Part shown: one piece after another, positions 1 to 26,040 of the stretch
Numbering within the stretch: position 1 is the first letter of the stretch
How the letters are laid out: each line of letters opens with the position of its first letter
Origin: a virus
Length of the DNA: 27,753 nt
IMG/VR virus record: IMGVR_UViG_3300015076_000009
Coordinates: 1 to 27,753 of that record
Direction: 5' to 3' (one strand)
Notes under the pieces: generated by a model
The model's database searches: none
What the model was told of the DNA's origin: nothing
What the model saw: the letters and a program-made list of their open reading frames with translations, nothing else
Position numbers and translations under genes: made by a program

Positions 1-801
1 TGTAGCAGCGGAACCAGCCGAACCGCCTGCGCCACCGTTGCCGCCAATACCGAAGCCCAAACAGTTGCAGCCGCCGCCCCCGCCACCGAGGCTCACGCTT
101 CCAGTCGTCGAGCCTGCACCGCCTGTTGGGATAGCTGGGCCATATGATTCCATGTTGGAATTGGCAGTGCCACCATTGCCACCATTGCCACCTGCGACCG
201 ATCCAGTGGGGTTGCCACCGCCACCGCCACCGCCACCGCAGGAGTTTCGAGTGCCGCCGAACATACCATTGGGGCTATCGCCGCCTGCAGATCCGTTGGC
301 ACCAGTAGCAGCACCGCCCGCGCCAGCTTGACCGTAAGGTACCCCGGTACCACCGCTGCCACCGGACGATCCGACAGAAGACGAACTGTTGCCCGGAGCA
401 AAGGCAGGACCCCCGGCGCAGTAGAATGCTACGAGACCGCCTGTGATGCTAGAGGTTCCACCTGCACCGCTGGCGCCGCCTTGCACACCGGCGTTACCAG
501 CAGCACCAGCAGCAATTGTCAAGGTTGTACCTTGAACAACCGGCATCAGGGCTTGGACTAGCTGTGCACCTGCTGCACCGCCGCCACCCCCCGCGCGACT
601 GACCGTACCGGTATTGACGCCACCCCCAGCACCACCCGCCCCACCACCGCACATGTCGATGACAAGCTGAGCAACTGCCTGAGGAACAGCCCACGTCCAG
701 GGGCTTGCCGTGGACGTGGCGTCAACGACACCGTCTGTGACCACACCAGTGCCGGGGATGAACTCGACGACGTGTTGTGTTACTGCTTCTCCGCCGAACA
801 T
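1..801 (-). CDS. Glycine-rich tail/adhesin-type protein, 3' end outside window
   Basis: The frame is open from an ATG at 801 down to base 1, so at least 267 codons are present and the C-terminus lies beyond the window. GGAGAG lies 5 bases before the ATG. The first ~35 residues are ordinary and include PWTWAVPQAVAQLVIDMCGG, the pattern that opens phage glycine-rich (Gly_rich-type) tail modules. The rest is dominated by runs of Gly with Ala, Ser, Asn and Thr, for example GGGGGGGG near the middle. Such segments in phage tail-tip adhesins form packed polyglycine helices at the distal end of the fibre. It follows the structural-type gene at 826-1242 by 24 bases, so the two are probably co-transcribed. 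The tail assignment is inferred from composition and neighbour; the frame itself is clear. Confidence 0.8.
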   Translation of the reverse strand, partial: MFGGEAVTQHVVEFIPGTGVVTDGVVDATSTASPWTWAVPQAVAQLVIDMCGGGAGGAGGGVNTGTVSRAGGGGGAAGAQLVQALMPVVQGTTLTIAAGAAGNAGVQGGASGAGGTSSITGGLVAFYCAGGPAFAPGNSSSSVGSSGGSGGTGVPYGQAGAGGAATGANGSAGGDSPNGMFGGTRNSCGGGGGGGGNPTGSVAGGNGGNGGTANSNMESYGPAIPTGGAGSTTGSVSLGGGGGGCNCLGFGIGGNGGAGGSAGSAAT

Positions 802-3696: not shown

Positions 3697-4410
3697 TTAC
3701 TTGATGCTTCGGATTGCCTCAGGGGCCTTGATTTGCTTGCTGAGGTTCACTTTGTCAGCCGCTGAACGTCCAGCACCCATCGCCGCATCGTTGATGTTGC
3801 GCATACTGATTGACTTACCCGGCTTGACGTTCATGTTCTCGTTAAGCCAACCTTCGTTTTCCTTCGCGAAGTTGGTCTGAACGACAACAAGGTCTCGACC
3901 GCTAGACTGCTTCATCTCTTCGACAGCAGCGGCGCGCAGAAGGGAGACACGCACGGAGAGACGTTCAGCGAAACCGAGTCCGAACGAACGTCCTGCGGAC
4001 GTGAGACGGTGCCCGCCCGCCTTGTCGGCTTCGCGCAGCGCGTCCTTCACGATCCAGTCTGCCATCAGCATGGCCGTCGTGGCGTTGGAGGCACGACCGA
4101 CATAGGTGTACTTGCCGCGCGTGGCATTGATCTTGCCCATGTTGATGTACCGGCAGTCGAACAGCTTCGCAACCGCATTCCGGATCATCTGACACCAGGG
4201 CAGGTACCAACCTTCGCCATCGAAACGGCCGAGCGGATCGTCTCGCTCCCGCTGCGCTTGCGGAATGTCGGACATATCGAGCTGGTACTTCGCCATGAGC
4301 GAACTTGCCATGCGCATGGCAAGTTCGCGCTCATTCTCGGTACTGCCGCGCTCGTCATTCGCACGCTCCAGCAGCTTGCGAATCTTCTCGAGGACCTTTT
4401 CTTCAGCCAT
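3697..4410 (-). CDS. DUF2786 domain protein
   Basis: This 237-residue protein starts with the DUF2786 pattern: KIRKLLERAND, then TENERELAMRMASSLMAKYQLD (residues ~9-45). This helical module is common in phage and plasmid proteins, where its role is unknown. The remainder resembles the C-terminal domain usually paired with it in phages (WYLPWCQMIRNAVAKLFDCR, YTYVGRASNATTAMLMADWI, then SFGLGFAERLSVRV). GGAG lies 8 bases before the ATG and a promoter-like TTGCTG-N18-TATACT precedes the gene. No catalytic residues can be named with confidence. Confidence 0.85.
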   Translation of the reverse strand: MAEEKVLEKIRKLLERANDERGSTENERELAMRMASSLMAKYQLDMSDIPQAQRERDDPLGRFDGEGWYLPWCQMIRNAVAKLFDCRYINMGKINATRGKYTYVGRASNATTAMLMADWIVKDALREADKAGGHRLTSAGRSFGLGFAERLSVRVSLLRAAAVEEMKQSSGRDLVVVQTNFAKENEGWLNENMNVKPGKSISMRNINDAAMGAGRSAADKVNLSKQIKAPEAIRSIK

Positions 4411-4884: not shown

Positions 4885-5128
4885 CTTCGGGAATGCGATT
4901 GTACGCATCTTTAGAAGGTTGTTTGATCGGAGTGTAAGAAGTTGACGCAGGACGCGGCTTCGCCGCGAAATTCAGATTGCCACTGCGAACATGATGTTCG
5001 ATGATTCCATCCGTTGCATTGATATAAGACGGGCAACGATAGACGATCACGCGCACAGGTGGGCGCAGACCTACAAGCGTGCACACTTCATGCGGTTCGT
5101 TGAAGTTTTTGCAGTCCAGACAGCTCAC
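4868..5128 (-). CDS. Small Cys4 protein with SSB-like acidic C-terminal tip
   Basis: This 86-residue protein starts with GTG at 5128, overlapping the preceding stop as GTGA, with GGAG upstream. Cysteines at 3, 6, 16 and 32 (CxxC then two single Cys) could hold a zinc ion. The middle is Pro/Ser/Thr-rich and looks disordered. The last six residues are EDDIPF, essentially the acidic tip of bacterial single-stranded DNA-binding protein (DDDIPF), which recruits repair and replication proteins. No OB fold fits in the remaining length, so it is not an ordinary SSB. It may imitate the SSB tail to attract or occupy host SSB partners; that is inference from the tail sequence. Confidence 0.75.
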   Translation of the reverse strand: MSCLDCKNFNEPHEVCTLVGLRPPVRVIVYRCPSYINATDGIIEHHVRSGNLNFAAKPRPASTSYTPIKQPSKDAYNRIPEDDIPF

Positions 5129-5583
5129 GATCCGTTCTCCGAGTAGAAGTTGGGCTTCTTGAGACGTCCGTGAAGACCTTGTTCGAAGATCATATGCACG
5201 CCGTAGTCATGGCACACGAACCAGTTCTTGTCTCCGTGAGTAGTCATCCCCCAGTTTTCCCGCTTAGTATCAGTAAAGAATGTGGGGATTTTGTCCGGGT
5301 ATTCCGACAACCCTGCGGGACGCGTGCGCTCCTGAATCAGGATCTTGCCATCCGGGGAGATACTGTCAATGGCTGCGAACCAACGACTGTGCTTCGTGCT
5401 GCGCACAGCCTGCCAGATATGCCACTCAGCAAGGTTCTGATAATTGGGGTACGGGTCAACTTCCACTTTGACCACATATCCAGGCTTCAACTTGCACTCA
5501 TAAACCTGGCGCGACATTCCGCCGCCCAATTTCTTTCCACACAGGATGTTGAATGCTTCTTGGCCGATTTCTTCAGCGATCAT
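5125..5583 (-). CDS. Minimal protein-kinase-fold protein, 152 aa
   Basis: With the start at 5583, one base after the preceding stop, the chain shows the main kinase landmarks: glycine-rich loop GGGMSRQV (20-27), VVKV with Lys39, a possible helix-C Glu53, hinge-like LIQERTRP (82-89), catalytic-loop-like TDTKREN with Asp105 and Asn110 (the D-x4-N spacing of HRDLKxxN) and DYG at 126-128 in place of DFG. Only 24 residues follow DYG, so most of the kinase C-lobe is absent; kinases are normally 250 residues or more. It could be a reduced kinase, a pseudokinase or an aminoglycoside-phosphotransferase-like relic. It starts right after the PEP-CTERM-like gene and overlaps the next gene by 4 bases. Confidence 0.7.
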   Translation of the reverse strand: MIAEEIGQEAFNILCGKKLGGGMSRQVYECKLKPGYVVKVEVDPYPNYQNLAEWHIWQAVRSTKHSRWFAAIDSISPDGKILIQERTRPAGLSEYPDKIPTFFTDTKRENWGMTTHGDKNWFVCHDYGVHMIFEQGLHGRLKKPNFYSENGS

Positions 5584-5584
5584 T

Positions 5585-6148
5585 TTACTTCGTCCGACGG
5601 GAAAGCCAGCGGTAGTAGCATGCAACAGCAATCCCGAAGCATGCCCACAGGCGCCAGATAGCAGCTTCCGGGACCGGGCTTGTCATCCTGTCCAATGTGA
5701 TTGTTCCGTTGACGTATTCGTTGAACGGCAGAGCGATCAAGAATGTGCCTGCATACATGTTGATATCCGCGTCACCTACGCTGAAAACGACACCTGCATT
5801 GTCGAATGCATCGCTTGTGCTCCATCCGTGCGGCACGTCGGTAGGACCGAAAAAGCGGTTGTCGTAGTCGTAAGCAGGATCCTTGCCAATAGGAATGATG
5901 CCGGAGATCGAAGAACCGTTCAGAACCCCTGAGAACGACAGAATTTGTTGGCCTAGTCCTCGGTCCACATCGGCAGTTGCCGTGGTGAATTGACCGGAAA
6001 GGTTGAACGCCGGATCGCTGTCGTAGACGTTGGAGAGTTCGATATCCCACACGGCTGCGGCGCTTGCAGGGGAAGACCAGCACAGCATGAACAGTGCCAT
6101 GACGGCAAGCATGATTGCGGAAACGAGCAGAGACTTGAATGTGGTCAT
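5585..6148 (-). CDS. Secreted protein with PEP-CTERM-like C-terminus
   Basis: The start at 6148 overlaps the preceding gene as ATGA; the longer upstream start at 6271 would run through that gene and is rejected. The 187-residue protein has a classic signal peptide (basic start, LLVSAIMLAVMALFMLCW core, ASA-AA cleavage site near residue 30). It has a beta-rich secreted body with many Asp, Gly, Ser and Thr. The tail has VPEA at 159-162, a hydrophobic span (WRLWACFGIAVACYY) and a basic end (RWLSRRTK). That order, VPEP-type motif, membrane span, arginine cluster, defines PEP-CTERM proteins, which exosortase sorts to the outer surface in polysaccharide-forming Gram-negatives. A host exosortase would be needed. 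The proline is replaced by alanine, so sorting is not certain. Confidence 0.75.
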   Translation of the reverse strand: MTTFKSLLVSAIMLAVMALFMLCWSSPASAAAVWDIELSNVYDSDPAFNLSGQFTTATADVDRGLGQQILSFSGVLNGSSISGIIPIGKDPAYDYDNRFFGPTDVPHGWSTSDAFDNAGVVFSVGDADINMYAGTFLIALPFNEYVNGTITLDRMTSPVPEAAIWRLWACFGIAVACYYRWLSRRTK

Positions 6149-6399
6149 TTGACGATTTGTCCTGTGACACAATTGCGCCAGCCGTGTGCGACGTCCGACA
6201 TGATTCGTTTCGGGGAAAGGACGATCACAGGGTAATGATTCCCCATTGCGAGCGGGCTGAAGGGGCGACATTCAACAGTGACGACGATTCCGACAGCTTC
6301 GGCAGCCATCAGAATTTCTGCGATACACTCCGAGAAGCGTTCCAAGTCGACATTGCTGTCGTAAAGCTTTTCGGAAATCTCGACCAGAATGTTGTTCAT
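6145..6399 (-). CDS. Hypothetical protein, 84 aa
   Basis: Not recognised. AGGCGAG precedes the ATG by 4 bases. The N-terminal half is helical (FSECIAEILMAAEAVGIVVTV) and the rest mixed, with no signal peptide or metal motif. Its stop overlaps the start of the PEP-CTERM-like gene as ATGA, so the two are translated together. TATACA and TATAGT boxes lie just upstream at 6416-6433. Confidence 0.75.
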   Translation of the reverse strand: MNNILVEISEKLYDSNVDLERFSECIAEILMAAEAVGIVVTVECRPFSPLAMGNHYPVIVLSPKRIMSDVAHGWRNCVTGQIVK

Positions 6400-9213: not shown

Positions 9214-9786
9214 TTATTCCTCCAGGACAGCGTAGACGATGGGAACGATACGTTCGTACCCGTTGCAGCGCCGGTCAGGTTCTTTGAATACGATTACGAC
9301 GTCTCCATCGTAATCGTAGCAGAGCCAGGCGAGTTTTCGACCGTTATCCTTGCAGGCACGCAGGAAGGCATGGAGTGCAGCTTCGTAGCGATGACGGACA
9401 GCTGGATAGTCGTCATCGACGATCGCAGTCTGCTGTATCTGCTGATACGCTCGAGACAAATTCTCGACGCAATTGAATTCTTTTCCCTGCCCATCTCCGC
9501 TGGGCACCGGAAAGAATTGAATCACATGTGAAGGTTCAACGCAAACGCCATTCACGAGGAAACCGATACCGAACTTGTCAGCATCCACCGCCGCGAGTTT
9601 CTTCTGCGTGTCGTTGTCCTTGCGCACCTGTTCGATAGTCAGGCAAGGTGAAGGATCAGGCTTGGTGTTGGTCAACACACGATCCTGCATCCAGCCGGCA
9701 CCCAGCACGAATGCAGCCATCTTTTCGGGGTCGTACTGCTCGTAATGACGTGCGGCAGCGTGTTCCATCTCTTTTTCGGGAATCAT
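9214..9786 (-). CDS. Hypothetical protein, 190 aa
   Basis: Not recognised. The start at 9786 is chosen over the ATG at 9810 because GGAG lies 6 bases before it, while the longer form has no ribosome site. The chain begins MIPEKEMEHAAARHYEQ, then FVLGAGWMQDR, a pattern seen in small phage proteins whose function is unknown. The second half holds alternating strands and a helix (YPAVRHRYEAALHAFLRACKD). No signal peptide or catalytic motif can be named. Confidence 0.78.
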   Translation of the reverse strand: MIPEKEMEHAAARHYEQYDPEKMAAFVLGAGWMQDRVLTNTKPDPSPCLTIEQVRKDNDTQKKLAAVDADKFGIGFLVNGVCVEPSHVIQFFPVPSGDGQGKEFNCVENLSRAYQQIQQTAIVDDDYPAVRHRYEAALHAFLRACKDNGRKLAWLCYDYDGDVVIVFKEPDRRCNGYERIVPIVYAVLEE

Positions 9787-9822
9787 GTAGGGCTCCAGTT
9801 GTGTAAGCATATTGTCGCAGGC

Positions 9823-9927
9823 TCACTTATGATTCTTCCAGATGTGCACAATCATCGCAATGACTACGATGATATAAAGAGCAGCAAAACCTCCCGCGAA
9901 AATACGAGCTGTTTCGATGGAGATCAT
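9823..9927 (-). CDS. Single-span membrane peptide, 34 aa
   Basis: This small gene encodes MISIETARIFAGGFAALYII, then VVIAMIVHIWKNHK. One hydrophobic helix covers most of the chain and a short basic tail follows, so an N-out/C-in inner-membrane peptide is expected. GGAG lies 8 bases before the ATG. It fits exactly between two hypothetical genes. Phages use such peptides as membrane-protein regulators or holin-like factors; the role here is unknown. Confidence 0.65.
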   Translation of the reverse strand: MISIETARIFAGGFAALYIIVVIAMIVHIWKNHK

Positions 9928-9930
9928 CTG

Positions 9931-10293
9931 TCAGTCTCCTAGCGCAGCAGCCCAGGCTTTCGCCTTGTTTTGCGAGTAGTCTTTGACGAGTCGGTCAAAT
10001 TCTTCGGCATGTTCCGGCGGACAACTGTGATGTCCGAGTTCTTTGTATCGATCGTGAACAGCCTTCAGGCGCACGAGTTCCTGCAATGCTTCGATACATC
10101 GCAGAGCACGCATCTGCTTTTCGATGAAATCATCACTCAGATTGATTGCAGGACCTGGCATCAGATGAGTGATTGGTGCAGCACCGCAACTAGGATCGAA
10201 ACGATCATCGCAGTAGTCACAGAGTCCGTCCGACTTATTGATATCCTGGACAGGGAACAGGCGATAGCAGCGGATGCAGTTAATAGAATTCAT
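9931..10293 (-). CDS. Zinc-ribbon-type protein, 120 aa
   Basis: The start at 10293 has AGGG 6 bases upstream and comes one base after the previous stop; a longer frame start at 10419 overlaps the preceding gene and is rejected. Near the N-terminus are two Cys pairs, CIRC and CDYC, about 18 residues apart, forming a likely four-Cys zinc site. The rest is helical and charged (FIEKQMRALRCIEALQELVR). Such proteins often bind nucleic acid or act as small adaptors, but no family was recognised. Confidence 0.75.
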   Translation of the reverse strand: MNSINCIRCYRLFPVQDINKSDGLCDYCDDRFDPSCGAAPITHLMPGPAINLSDDFIEKQMRALRCIEALQELVRLKAVHDRYKELGHHSCPPEHAEEFDRLVKDYSQNKAKAWAAALGD

Positions 10294-10294
10294 T

Positions 10295-10576
10295 TCAATC
10301 CCTGATTTGTGCGTAGAGGCGATCACGGCGTTCTTTGTTGATGTAACGTTGACAGCCTTGCATCGACATATCGATCTCGTTCCATTCATGACCTTGCAGA
10401 ACCTGAACGTCCAGATCACTATGCACGATTCGGCAATACGTGATTGTCTCGTGCGAAGGATCCTCGACCGTCATCGACCCGTGACGAACGATCAATTCAT
10501 CATCTTCGCGATATTTCTGTTCCATCCACTCGCGACGTTGCGTCGTGCTCGCAAACAGCTTGAGGATGCGTTTCAC
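10295..10576 (-). CDS. Hypothetical protein, 93 aa, GTG start
   Basis: Not recognised. The GTG at 10576 has GGAG 5 bases upstream and begins two bases after the previous stop; a GTG at 10591 is less well placed. The protein starts with a basic helix (VKRILKLFASTTQRREWMEQ) and continues as a mixed, charged chain with no special motif. Confidence 0.72.
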   Translation of the reverse strand: MKRILKLFASTTQRREWMEQKYREDDELIVRHGSMTVEDPSHETITYCRIVHSDLDVQVLQGHEWNEIDMSMQGCQRYINKERRDRLYAQIRD

Positions 10577-10578
10577 GA

Positions 10579-10773
10579 CTACTCCGAGCACTGAATGGAA
10601 ATGTTGACCACATCATCGTCCAGCAGCTCGATCTGGTCGTCTATTTTCGGAAGCTCGGACAGCGCAAGGATCTGATCGCCTGCATGTCGTGCACAGTATG
10701 CCACGAAATTTTGCAATTCACGGTTTCTGTAGGACTCCGGATTCTTGACGATGATATAAAGGTTGAATTGCAT
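10579..10773 (-). CDS. Hypothetical acidic protein, 64 aa
   Basis: Not recognised. The start at 10773 overlaps the previous stop as TAATG. The N-terminus MQFNLYIIVKNPESYRNREL is beta-strand-like and the rest is helical and acidic with a DDDVV motif near the end. The long frame to 10929 crosses another gene and is not used. Confidence 0.7.
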   Translation of the reverse strand: MQFNLYIIVKNPESYRNRELQNFVAYCARHAGDQILALSELPKIDDQIELLDDDVVNISIQCSE

Positions 10774-16335: not shown

Positions 16336-16375
16336 TGTTGGTAAGCGCTCACGAGCCCGGTTCCGACCTATAAAG

Positions 16376-16464
16376 AAGCATGCTTTTTCAAAAACGTCTG
16401 GATTCGTTTTTGCCTAGTTTTGGAGAAGCATGCTTTTTCTTCCCCGCAACAAAGAAGCATGCTT
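16376..16464. repeat. AAGCATGCTT cluster 1 (three copies)
   Basis: Copies at 16376-16385, 16426-16435 and 16455-16464, the last extended to AAAGAAGCATGCTTCTTT. A 26-bp sequence (16397-16422) between copies 1 and 2 recurs at 16849-16874 with one mismatch. The last copy is 19 bases before the ATG at 16484. Confidence 0.75.
16397..16422 (+). repeat. 26-bp direct repeat, copy A
   Basis: TCTGGATTCGTTTTTGCCTA and six more bases. Copy B at 16849-16874 differs only at one position. Both precede small genes with the AAGCATGCTT operators, as if the control region had been duplicated. Confidence 0.7.
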
Positions 16465-16483
16465 CTTTTATCTAGGAGTTGAT

Positions 16484-16699
16484 ATGACAATTCGTACTGG
16501 AACTGTTGCCGTCCCGTTCTTCTGCGGAACGCGAAACGAGTTCGATCCTGTGCTGCACTGCAACATTCAGAAGCGCGCATACTGGACAGTTGGCACCGAC
16601 GTGCACGTCCTGGAATCCCGTCCTGGACAGATCTATATCGAACTGCCCAACGGAACGAAAGCCTGGGTCGGTTTGTCGCGGGTGCACTTGAACGACTGA
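16484..16699 (+). CDS. Hypothetical small beta protein, 71 aa
   Basis: TAGGAGTTGATATG gives a clear ribosome site. The protein MTIRTGTVAVPFFCGTRNEF is beta-rich and contains WTVGTDVHVLESRPGQIYIE, then LPNGTKAWVGLSRV. That alternation resembles an SH3-like barrel, although no family was matched. It is expressed from the region controlled by AAGCATGCTT cluster 1. Confidence 0.72.
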   Translation: MTIRTGTVAVPFFCGTRNEFDPVLHCNIQKRAYWTVGTDVHVLESRPGQIYIELPNGTKAWVGLSRVHLND

Positions 16700-16722
16700 T
16701 CTATATCAGCGAACTTGCTGAA

Positions 16723-16803
16723 GTGAGCACTCACGAACGAGCGCAGGTTTGTTCGTGCTCACTATCCTGAGAGTTTACCCTCTAGCTGAGAACCCTCAGG
16801 ATA
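16723..16803. repeat. Palindromes after the 71-aa gene
   Basis: GTGAG-CA-CTCAC (16723-16734) is related to the GTAAGCGCTTAC palindrome. TATCCTGAG (16763-16771) and CTCAGGATA (16795-16803) form a perfect 9-bp inverted repeat enclosing ACCCTC sites at 16776 and 16791. Confidence 0.55.
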
Positions 16804-16848
16804 CTGATCAAGCATTTGGCCCGGATCCTCGGTAGATTTTGCAAAAGC

Positions 16849-16874
16849 TCTGGATTCGTTTTTACCTAGTTTTG
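16849..16874 (+). repeat. 26-bp direct repeat, copy B
   Basis: Differs from 16397-16422 at a single base (G to A at position 16). It lies 14 bases before AAGCATGCTT cluster 2. Confidence 0.7.
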
Positions 16875-16887
16875 ACTTTTGCTTGAA

Positions 16888-16948
16888 AAGCATGCTTCTT
16901 TGTTTTTGCGAAAAGCATGCTTCTTTCTGCTACAATAAAAGCATGCTT
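16888..16948. promoter_or_regulatory. Operator-promoter: AAGCATGCTT cluster 2 overlapping a TACAAT promoter
   Basis: Copies at 16888-16897, 16913-16922 and 16939-16948 are spaced 25 and 26 bp. A -10 box TACAAT (16931-16936) lies between the second and third copies. The second copy fills the -35/-10 spacer and the third covers the start point. This is the layout of a three-site repressor-controlled promoter. The gene at 16964 follows after a GGAC ribosome site. Confidence 0.7.
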
Positions 16949-16963
16949 TGAAAGGACTTTGAT

Positions 16964-17233
16964 ATGACGAATTCTACAACGCTTGCCATCTTCGACGGAC
17001 GATACGTGGTTTCTGCAACCGGTGAGGACTACGAAGCGTCTGACCATAGTGTCGGACTGCAAGGCGGCTTCACATCGTTCGTGCTGAACAGCGCCTTCAA
17101 TGGCGTCACCAAGGAAGACTTAACCGAAGAGCAGTTGCGCGAGATCAATATTCGAATCGACAATAGCTCGTTCGAGACGGAGCGCATCCTCGAAGCGCTG
17201 GACGCTGCATACGATCCGGGTTGCGACGACTGA
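16964..17233 (+). CDS. Hypothetical acidic protein, 89 aa
   Basis: AAGGACTTTGATATG precedes the start, the same leader form as the three genes before. The protein MTNSTTLAIFDGRYVVSATG is acidic and ends with a helical segment (TEEQLREINIRIDNSSFETE) and CDD. It is unrecognised. Three operators overlap its promoter, so tight control is expected. Confidence 0.73.
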   Translation: MTNSTTLAIFDGRYVVSATGEDYEASDHSVGLQGGFTSFVLNSAFNGVTKEDLTEEQLREINIRIDNSSFETERILEALDAAYDPGCDD

Positions 17234-17380
17234 CCTTGCGTTACACTGCAACTCCTGCGGCCTGCATGTGGCTAGCGAGTGCACACCAACCTTGGATGAT
17301 CAAGTGCCTGAATCAGATCGACCCTTGCCTATCAGTTTCTGGTCCCAACCTGTCCCTGCAGCGACAGCGGACCAGGATAA

Positions 17381-17418
17381 AAGCATGCTTCTTTCTGCAG
17401 AGGAAGAAAAGCATGCTT
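17381..17418. repeat. AAGCATGCTT cluster 3 (two copies)
   Basis: Copies at 17381-17390 and 17409-17418. The 20 bases from 17379 are identical to those at 16911-16930 in cluster 2, so part of the operator-promoter was copied. The first copy contains the ATG proposed for the next gene. Confidence 0.7.
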
Positions 17419-17909
17419 CTGATCTGAATCTTAACGATTGGATGCCGAGCTTCGATTCCAAGGGTTTGACACGCGCCGACGTGCAAGCGCTGTACGGAAC
17501 GTTCAGCCAGCAGATGGGTCAAGAGCTTCGCACGTACGAACAGATCTATCAGCATGTCTGCATGGTTCAGATTGCTATGCAGAAGCAACCGCAAGCAAAT
17601 ATCGATCCGGTTTGGGTTGCGCAGCACGATGCATTCACACCGAAAATTTTTGTTGGGGAAGACCCGGCAAGCGCTTCCGCAGCGGACGCTATGGAAGCGC
17701 AGGACAACGCACACGCACAGCAGGCAAGCGCTTTGCCGCGTGCTCAACTCCACGATATCGCAGAGGCTGCGCGCCTATCCTGGAAGGATGCTGTCGAGCA
17801 ACGCCGAAAAGCTGTATCAGACTGGGATGAATACGTCCGCATGAAGCATGCGGACTACGATCAAGCAAAAGCCAACCTGAAGGCTTTTCGAAAGCATGCT
17901 TCTACGTAG
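17385..17909 (+). CDS. Hypothetical protein, 174 aa, start codon inside an operator
   Basis: The frame is open from a GTG at 17268 without a ribosome site. AGGA lies 7 bases before the ATG at 17385, which is chosen. The protein is helical, with DWMPSFDSKGLTRADVQALY, an Ala/Gln-rich middle and a basic helical end (EQRRKAVSDWDEYVRMKHAD, YDQAKANLKAF). No domain was recognised. Four AAGCATGCTT copies lie in or touching the frame: two at the start, and one at the end encoding KHAS plus one just after. If the longer start is real, cluster 3 lies within the coding sequence. Confidence 0.65.
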   Translation: MLLSAEEEKHASDLNLNDWMPSFDSKGLTRADVQALYGTFSQQMGQELRTYEQIYQHVCMVQIAMQKQPQANIDPVWVAQHDAFTPKIFVGEDPASASAADAMEAQDNAHAQQASALPRAQLHDIAEAARLSWKDAVEQRRKAVSDWDEYVRMKHADYDQAKANLKAFRKHAST

Positions 17910-17925
17910 ATAGGAAAGCATGCTT
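17892..17925. promoter_or_regulatory. AAGCATGCTT cluster 4 with possible promoter
   Basis: Copies at 17892-17901 and 17916-17925, spaced 24 bp. A TAGATA box (17907-17912) lies between them, in the same relation as TACAAT in cluster 2. It precedes the HTH and primase operon. A second possible promoter, TTGCGA-N18-TAAACT, lies at 17950-17979. Confidence 0.55.
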
Positions 17926-25873: not shown

Positions 25874-25949
25874 GCCCCCTTAGCTCAGTTGGTAGAGCAT
25901 CTGCCTTGTAAGCAGGAGGTCAGAGGTTCGAATCCTCTAGTGGGCACCA
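25874..25949 (+). tRNA. tRNA-Thr (UGU)
   Basis: All arms are canonical: acceptor GCCCCCT/AGTGGGC with one C-T mismatch, D arm GCTC-AGTTGGTA-GAGC, anticodon stem TCTGC/GCAGG with loop CTTGTAA giving UGU, variable AGGTC, T arm AGAGG-TTCGAAT-CCTCT, and encoded CCA. It is the one clearly functional tRNA of the array. It reads ACA and, by wobble, other Thr codons. Confidence 0.95.
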
Positions 25950-25953
25950 GTTT

Positions 25954-26040
25954 CGCCGTATAGCTCAGACTGGTAGAGTCACCGTTCTGCCCGTGCACGG
26001 GTTCCGGAGGTCGTTGGTTCAAATCCAACTACGGCGACCA
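25954..26040 (+). tRNA. tRNA-like RNA with a palindrome in the anticodon arm
   Basis: Acceptor CGCCGTA/TACGGCG with ACCA, D arm GCTC-AGACTGGTA-GAGT, variable AGGTC and T arm GTTGG-TTCAAAT-CCAAC are normal. The anticodon arm is not: CCG and CGG enclose TTCTG, a perfect 12-bp palindrome CCCGTGCACGGG (25990-26001) and TTC. Removing the 12 bases gives near-normal tRNA length (75 with CCA). The isotype cannot be assigned. Confidence 0.65.

Follow-up and report, generated by a model that had tools for sequence, protein, structure and literature searches.

A phage operon gene for an exported protein with a possible divergent PEP-CTERM-like tail

The window, which here means the whole 27,753-base virus record from IMG/VR, carries a gene at 5585..6148 on the minus strand whose product, as we read its sequence, may be a divergent PEP-CTERM-like exported protein with a tail of the VPEA type. 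We place this reading only just short of an even chance. The protein would then be one divergent instance of a wider practice, which we hold more tentatively, in which tailed phages of many kinds carry no exosortase of their own and use that of the host to bring PEP-CTERM cargo to the cell surface.

The gene encodes 187 amino acids (coding positions 5588-6148, stop codon TAA at 5585-5587), and the borders 5585-6148 given in the first-pass annotation are exact. The upstream gene (6145..6399, minus strand; 84 amino acids, function unassigned) overlaps it by ATGA. Downstream, a phrog_4301 gene of the YuA gp39 family (5125..5583, minus strand) starts one base past its stop codon. The codon log-odds is +0.19 in the frame of the gene and negative in all five other frames, and the GC3 of 0.64 is similar to that of the neighbouring genes. 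The ORF is coding and lies inside a gapless phage operon. An untranslated ORF is very improbable. No more than a weak AGGA precedes the ATG, at a distance of 11 bases, and homologs were found nowhere, but the gapless operon with its ATGA overlap speaks for translation, as does codon usage that looks coding in no other frame.

By its gene content, the window phage is a Nipunavirus-like tailed phage. The rightward genes include a primase, a MazG-like gene, thymidylate synthase, DNA ligase and a Sak4-like gene, a pattern seen in PaMx25 (Queuovirinae/Nipunavirus phages), and the primase is about 50% identical to those of PaMx25 and Variovorax phage VPv62. As in PaMx25, the primase has on its left a leftward block of mostly small genes without assigned function. 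PADLOC gave no match for the ORF at 5585-6148(-) or for five further genes of the same block, and no exosortase was found within the 27.7-kb record. Between the small genes immediately on that side of the primase (16358-17916), a palindromic AAAGCATGCTT element recurs several times and may serve as a regulatory or binding site. At the window edge (1-800, minus strand), a glycine-rich open frame (GGGGGGGGNPTGSVAGGNGGNGG...) runs off the end of the contig and probably encodes a tail or appendage protein rich in glycine. ARAGORN called two genes in 25874-26040: tRNA-Thr(TGT) and, after it, a tRNA-like one whose anticodon call has only two bases and which is perhaps degenerate or unusual.

From the N-terminus on, the sequence shows a signal peptide, then one exported domain, then one hydrophobic span close to the C-terminus, and lastly a basic end. 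The signal peptide (residues 1-30; 6059..6148, minus strand) reads MTTFKSLLVSAIMLAVMALFMLCWSSPASA and is followed by AAVWD. It has K5, a long hydrophobic core and a predicted cut after ASA, and is supported by the sequence, a crude hydropathy rule and a model helix, which likewise place no hydrophobic span inside the body. The exported body (residues 31-158; 5675..6058, minus strand) is acidic, with a net charge of -12, and contains no Cys. Its Ser, Thr and Asn content is about 23%, compared with 9-17% in seven other proteins of the window. A beta-rich body had been proposed and is probable, on the strength of a single-sequence AlphaFold model of low confidence (pLDDT 50) that has seven strands between helices at 2-25 and 161-186.

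The C-terminus follows the order VPEAAIW-R-LWACFGIAVACYY-RWLSRRTK. The VPEAAIW motif (residues 159-165; 5654..5674, minus strand), recognized by sequence and motif score, is PEP-CTERM-like with Ala in the third place and Trp at position 7. After Arg166, the hydrophobic span LWACFGIAVACYY (residues 167-179; 5612..5650, minus strand) has 13 residues, close to the roughly 14 expected after the motif, and a mean hydropathy of 1.7; it falls within the second model helix, and its sequence is atypical. The end RWLSRRTK (residues 180-187; 5588..5611, minus strand) forms a basic cluster, sparser than the RRRR of typical members. The feature order claimed in the first-pass annotation, from signal peptide through body, VPEA and span to basic end, is thus present in the sequence.

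Profile searches did not recognize this tail. The ORF protein matched nothing in Pfam, NCBIfam or PHROG (the first two even at E=10), and the PEP-CTERM profiles TIGR02595 and NF035944, the check that had been proposed, were silent across the whole record at E<=10. With the same tools, canonical phage-borne PEP-CTERM proteins match, several above curated cut-offs. The near-invariant Pro-Glu-Pro is replaced by PEA in the ORF. Since no curated model matches it, the accepted models do not place the protein in the PEP-CTERM family. Could the tail belong to another C-terminal sorting class, such as IPTL-, MYXO- or GlyGly-CTERM, with proteases of its own? IPTL-type tails have Pro at position 2 and Trp at position 7, a lead in that direction as the window tail shares both residues, but NCBIfam, which includes VPDSG_CTERM and MYXO-CTERM besides the PEP-CTERM models, gave nothing at E=10. 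We regard this class of explanation as improbable.

A position matrix built from 232 genuine viral tails separates the two halves of the window tail. The whole tail scores -2.1 bits, and the lowest genuine tail scores 23.5. A score of -2.1 is reached by 18 of 28,558 other ORFs, at least 13 of which resemble PEP-CTERM tails missed by the filter; these six-frame control ORFs are a biased sample, because their loci were fetched partly for PEP-CTERM tails. Over motif columns 1-9, the window tail reaches 14.9 bits, a score matched by 10 other ORFs, which are mostly genuine tails. In its span and basic half it is equalled by roughly a tenth of the ORFs. None of the 95 tabulated tails has its Arg at position 8 or its Cys, Phe and Gly at positions 12-14.

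These scores bear on the possibility that the protein is a plain type-I inner-membrane protein, with a signal peptide, a periplasmic domain and a permanent C-terminal anchor, in which VPEA is coincidental. Its site of action would then be the periplasm or the inner membrane, with superinfection exclusion as one example of a function. The silence of the curated models and the ordinary span and basic end agree with it, and Arg166 and the aromatics would be more typical of interfacial anchors than of PEP-CTERM spans. However, VPExxxW directly ahead of a span is rare by chance, and a search of some 30 loci from related phages found no comparable protein with a signal peptide and a C-terminal span. 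We consider the plain anchor a serious possibility, somewhat under an even chance. A match to a simple tail anchor had been named in the first-pass annotation as grounds for abandoning its proposal; the hydrophobic and basic half does look ordinary, but the junction before it is rare.

The rarity of the junction was measured among 1038 six-frame ORFs with a C-terminal hydrophobic span and a basic end. Only four had VPE near the span without a PEP-type motif: two are genuine PEP-CTERM (VPEA) variants, and the remaining pair is a single sequence that occurs twice and has the wrong layout. A scan of IMG/VR for VPEAxxWA[M/L] returned 49 contigs, 34 of them with PEP-CTERM-style ends and one with VPEAATWAMM, which shows that VPEA does occur in nature as a form of the motif. 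One such form of the PEP-CTERM motif, VPEASTWA[M/L], is common (L306-L353, L043). The models may undercount it, because the example scored, L043, clears TIGR02595 by a narrow margin (16.1 against a cut-off of 16). As the VPE junction is rare and VPEA variants are real, the junction is hard to dismiss; the span lends no support.

Relatives that might show a conserved motif were sought widely. No homologs of the ORF were found in 50,697 GenBank phage records, 72,556 plasmids or the PDB, and none in IMG/VR or GTDB contigs, where exact 8-residue seeds were used and distant relatives would therefore escape. By phmmer, a homolog is absent from all loci compared, including the place beside phrog_4301 in YuA, Simon, Pan1 and R26L, and TIGR02595 had no match in 27 related phage records. 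One GTDB match (L005) was rejected as a chance 8-mer, IWRLWACF, within an unrelated frame. Weak phmmer matches to two viral PEP-CTERM proteins (L011, L066) were not accepted as homology, neither being significant in a larger set; the L011 alignment lies mostly in the signal peptide and the first part of the body. A consensus of a common PEP-CTERM body gave no match among the plasmids. On this evidence, the ORF appears to be an orphan accessory gene of the window phage.

The PEP-CTERM-like reading therefore has points on both sides. Only a handful of non-PEP ORFs among the 28,558 score as high, and the signal peptide, the lack of an internal span, the Ser/Thr/Asn-rich body and the lack of homologs fit the description of Haft et al. 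Against it stand the absence of a model match, the -2.1-bit tail, the ordinary span and the lack of a relative with a conserved motif. We judge it about equally probable that the protein works like a PEP-CTERM protein and that it is a plain anchor. Haft et al. (2006; PMC1569441) put the PEP motif on the outer side of the inner membrane and propose that EpsH cleaves it. If the protein is PEP-CTERM-like, it would be exported by Sec and lose its signal peptide. The C-terminal helix would then anchor it in the inner membrane, leaving the domain periplasmic and VPEAxxW on the outer surface of this membrane. A matching host exosortase, if present, would remove the tail and release the domain to the cell surface; with no matching exosortase, the protein would stay anchored. 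In either case the infected cell would have an altered envelope, and the role could be to exclude other phages, which we prefer, or to change surface contact.

PEP-CTERM proteins are better represented in other viral records. No canonical tail was found in the 50,697 GenBank phages, and two canonical pattern scans of IMG/VR gave at least 181 contigs with at least 201 PEP-CTERM-type proteins. Among 50 records checked from the first scan, 25 had a phrog_2 terminase and none had an exosortase. PHROG context showed phage genes in several further PEP-CTERM-bearing records; some other contigs may contain the host flanks of prophages. One phage group with PEP-CTERM genes comprises L119 (9250-10591), L182 of record G026 (1-1356) and L022 (8158-8232, minus strand). 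In L119, genes for a phage exonuclease, DNA polymerase, primase and helicase are followed by two tandem PEP-CTERM genes, one of them at 9998-10591, and the related G026 (locus L010) has two such genes with portal, amidase and terminase. The genes are tandem in two of the three records and adjoin helicase or virion genes, and two proteins of the group pass the FxDxF PEP-CTERM model NF038126 with 71 bits against a cut-off of 50. Elsewhere, a PEP-CTERM gene stands just ahead of HNH, terminase, portal and capsid genes (L055, 1689-2171, plus strand), between a primase and HNH, spanin and tail-fibre genes (L041 of G030, 3919-3945, plus strand) or next to an endolysin gene (L036, 2350-2973, plus strand). 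Together with L014 (11240-11266, minus strand), these three loci have short Pro- or Gly-rich PEP-CTERM proteins near endolysin, HNH/terminase or spanin/tail genes, possibly with a role in lysis or in changing the host surface. The 369-kb virus record G032 has a terminase, no exosortase match and three PEP-CTERM genes, one in L185 (G032:28000-46000) at 9249-10025 on the minus strand and others at G032 positions 37,026 and 148,744.

The idea that phages place PEP-CTERM cargo on the host surface through the host exosortase is thus supported by these records, which have canonical tails and no exosortase, but is unproven for the window; the general idea fares better than the example from which it started. 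Phage-encoded PEP-CTERM proteins are not described in the accessible text of any paper found, subscription journals lying mostly outside this scope. That phages use a host exosortase is plausible and seems not to have been described, although the evidence of novelty is weak. We know of no function for most PEP-CTERM proteins. Some activated-sludge bacteria need such proteins for floc formation (PMC9012009). If the idea is true, phages that export PEP-CTERM proteins via host machinery gain a route to exclude rivals or to change host aggregation, and such phages should either be restricted to hosts that have an exosortase or behave differently there. Taken by itself, the window protein is a weak example; the canonical phage-borne cases make the question directly testable.

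Three known systems can be set beside the window. PaMx25, VPv62 and related Queuovirinae/Nipunavirus phages share with it the primase, at about 50% identity, and an opposing leftward block with phrog_4301 and DenV-like genes, but have neither a counterpart of the ORF nor a PEP-CTERM match. With the PEP-CTERM/exosortase system (TIGR02595, PF09721; NF035944 for the PEPxxWA-CTERM form), the ORF shares a signal peptide, a unique body, VPE, a short span and a basic end. VPE, Trp7, Leu9 and Arg22 align with PEPxxWA-CTERM tails without gaps, 17 residues separate the motif from the first Arg, and VPEA is a natural variant. It differs in the Ala third in the motif, in Arg at position 8, in a span without Gly-Phe-Gly and in scoring below every curated model. 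Members of that system stand as single-gene operons, whereas the ORF lies in a phage operon without a known exosortase partner. The PEP-CTERM proteins of IMG/VR phages (L119, L010 and L022 of the FxDxF type, NF038126; L036, L055 and G032) match curated models, unlike the ORF, and their bodies are unrelated to its body. The window protein resembles them in its predicted export, in its C-terminal sorting-type tail and in its place in a phage genome without an exosortase.
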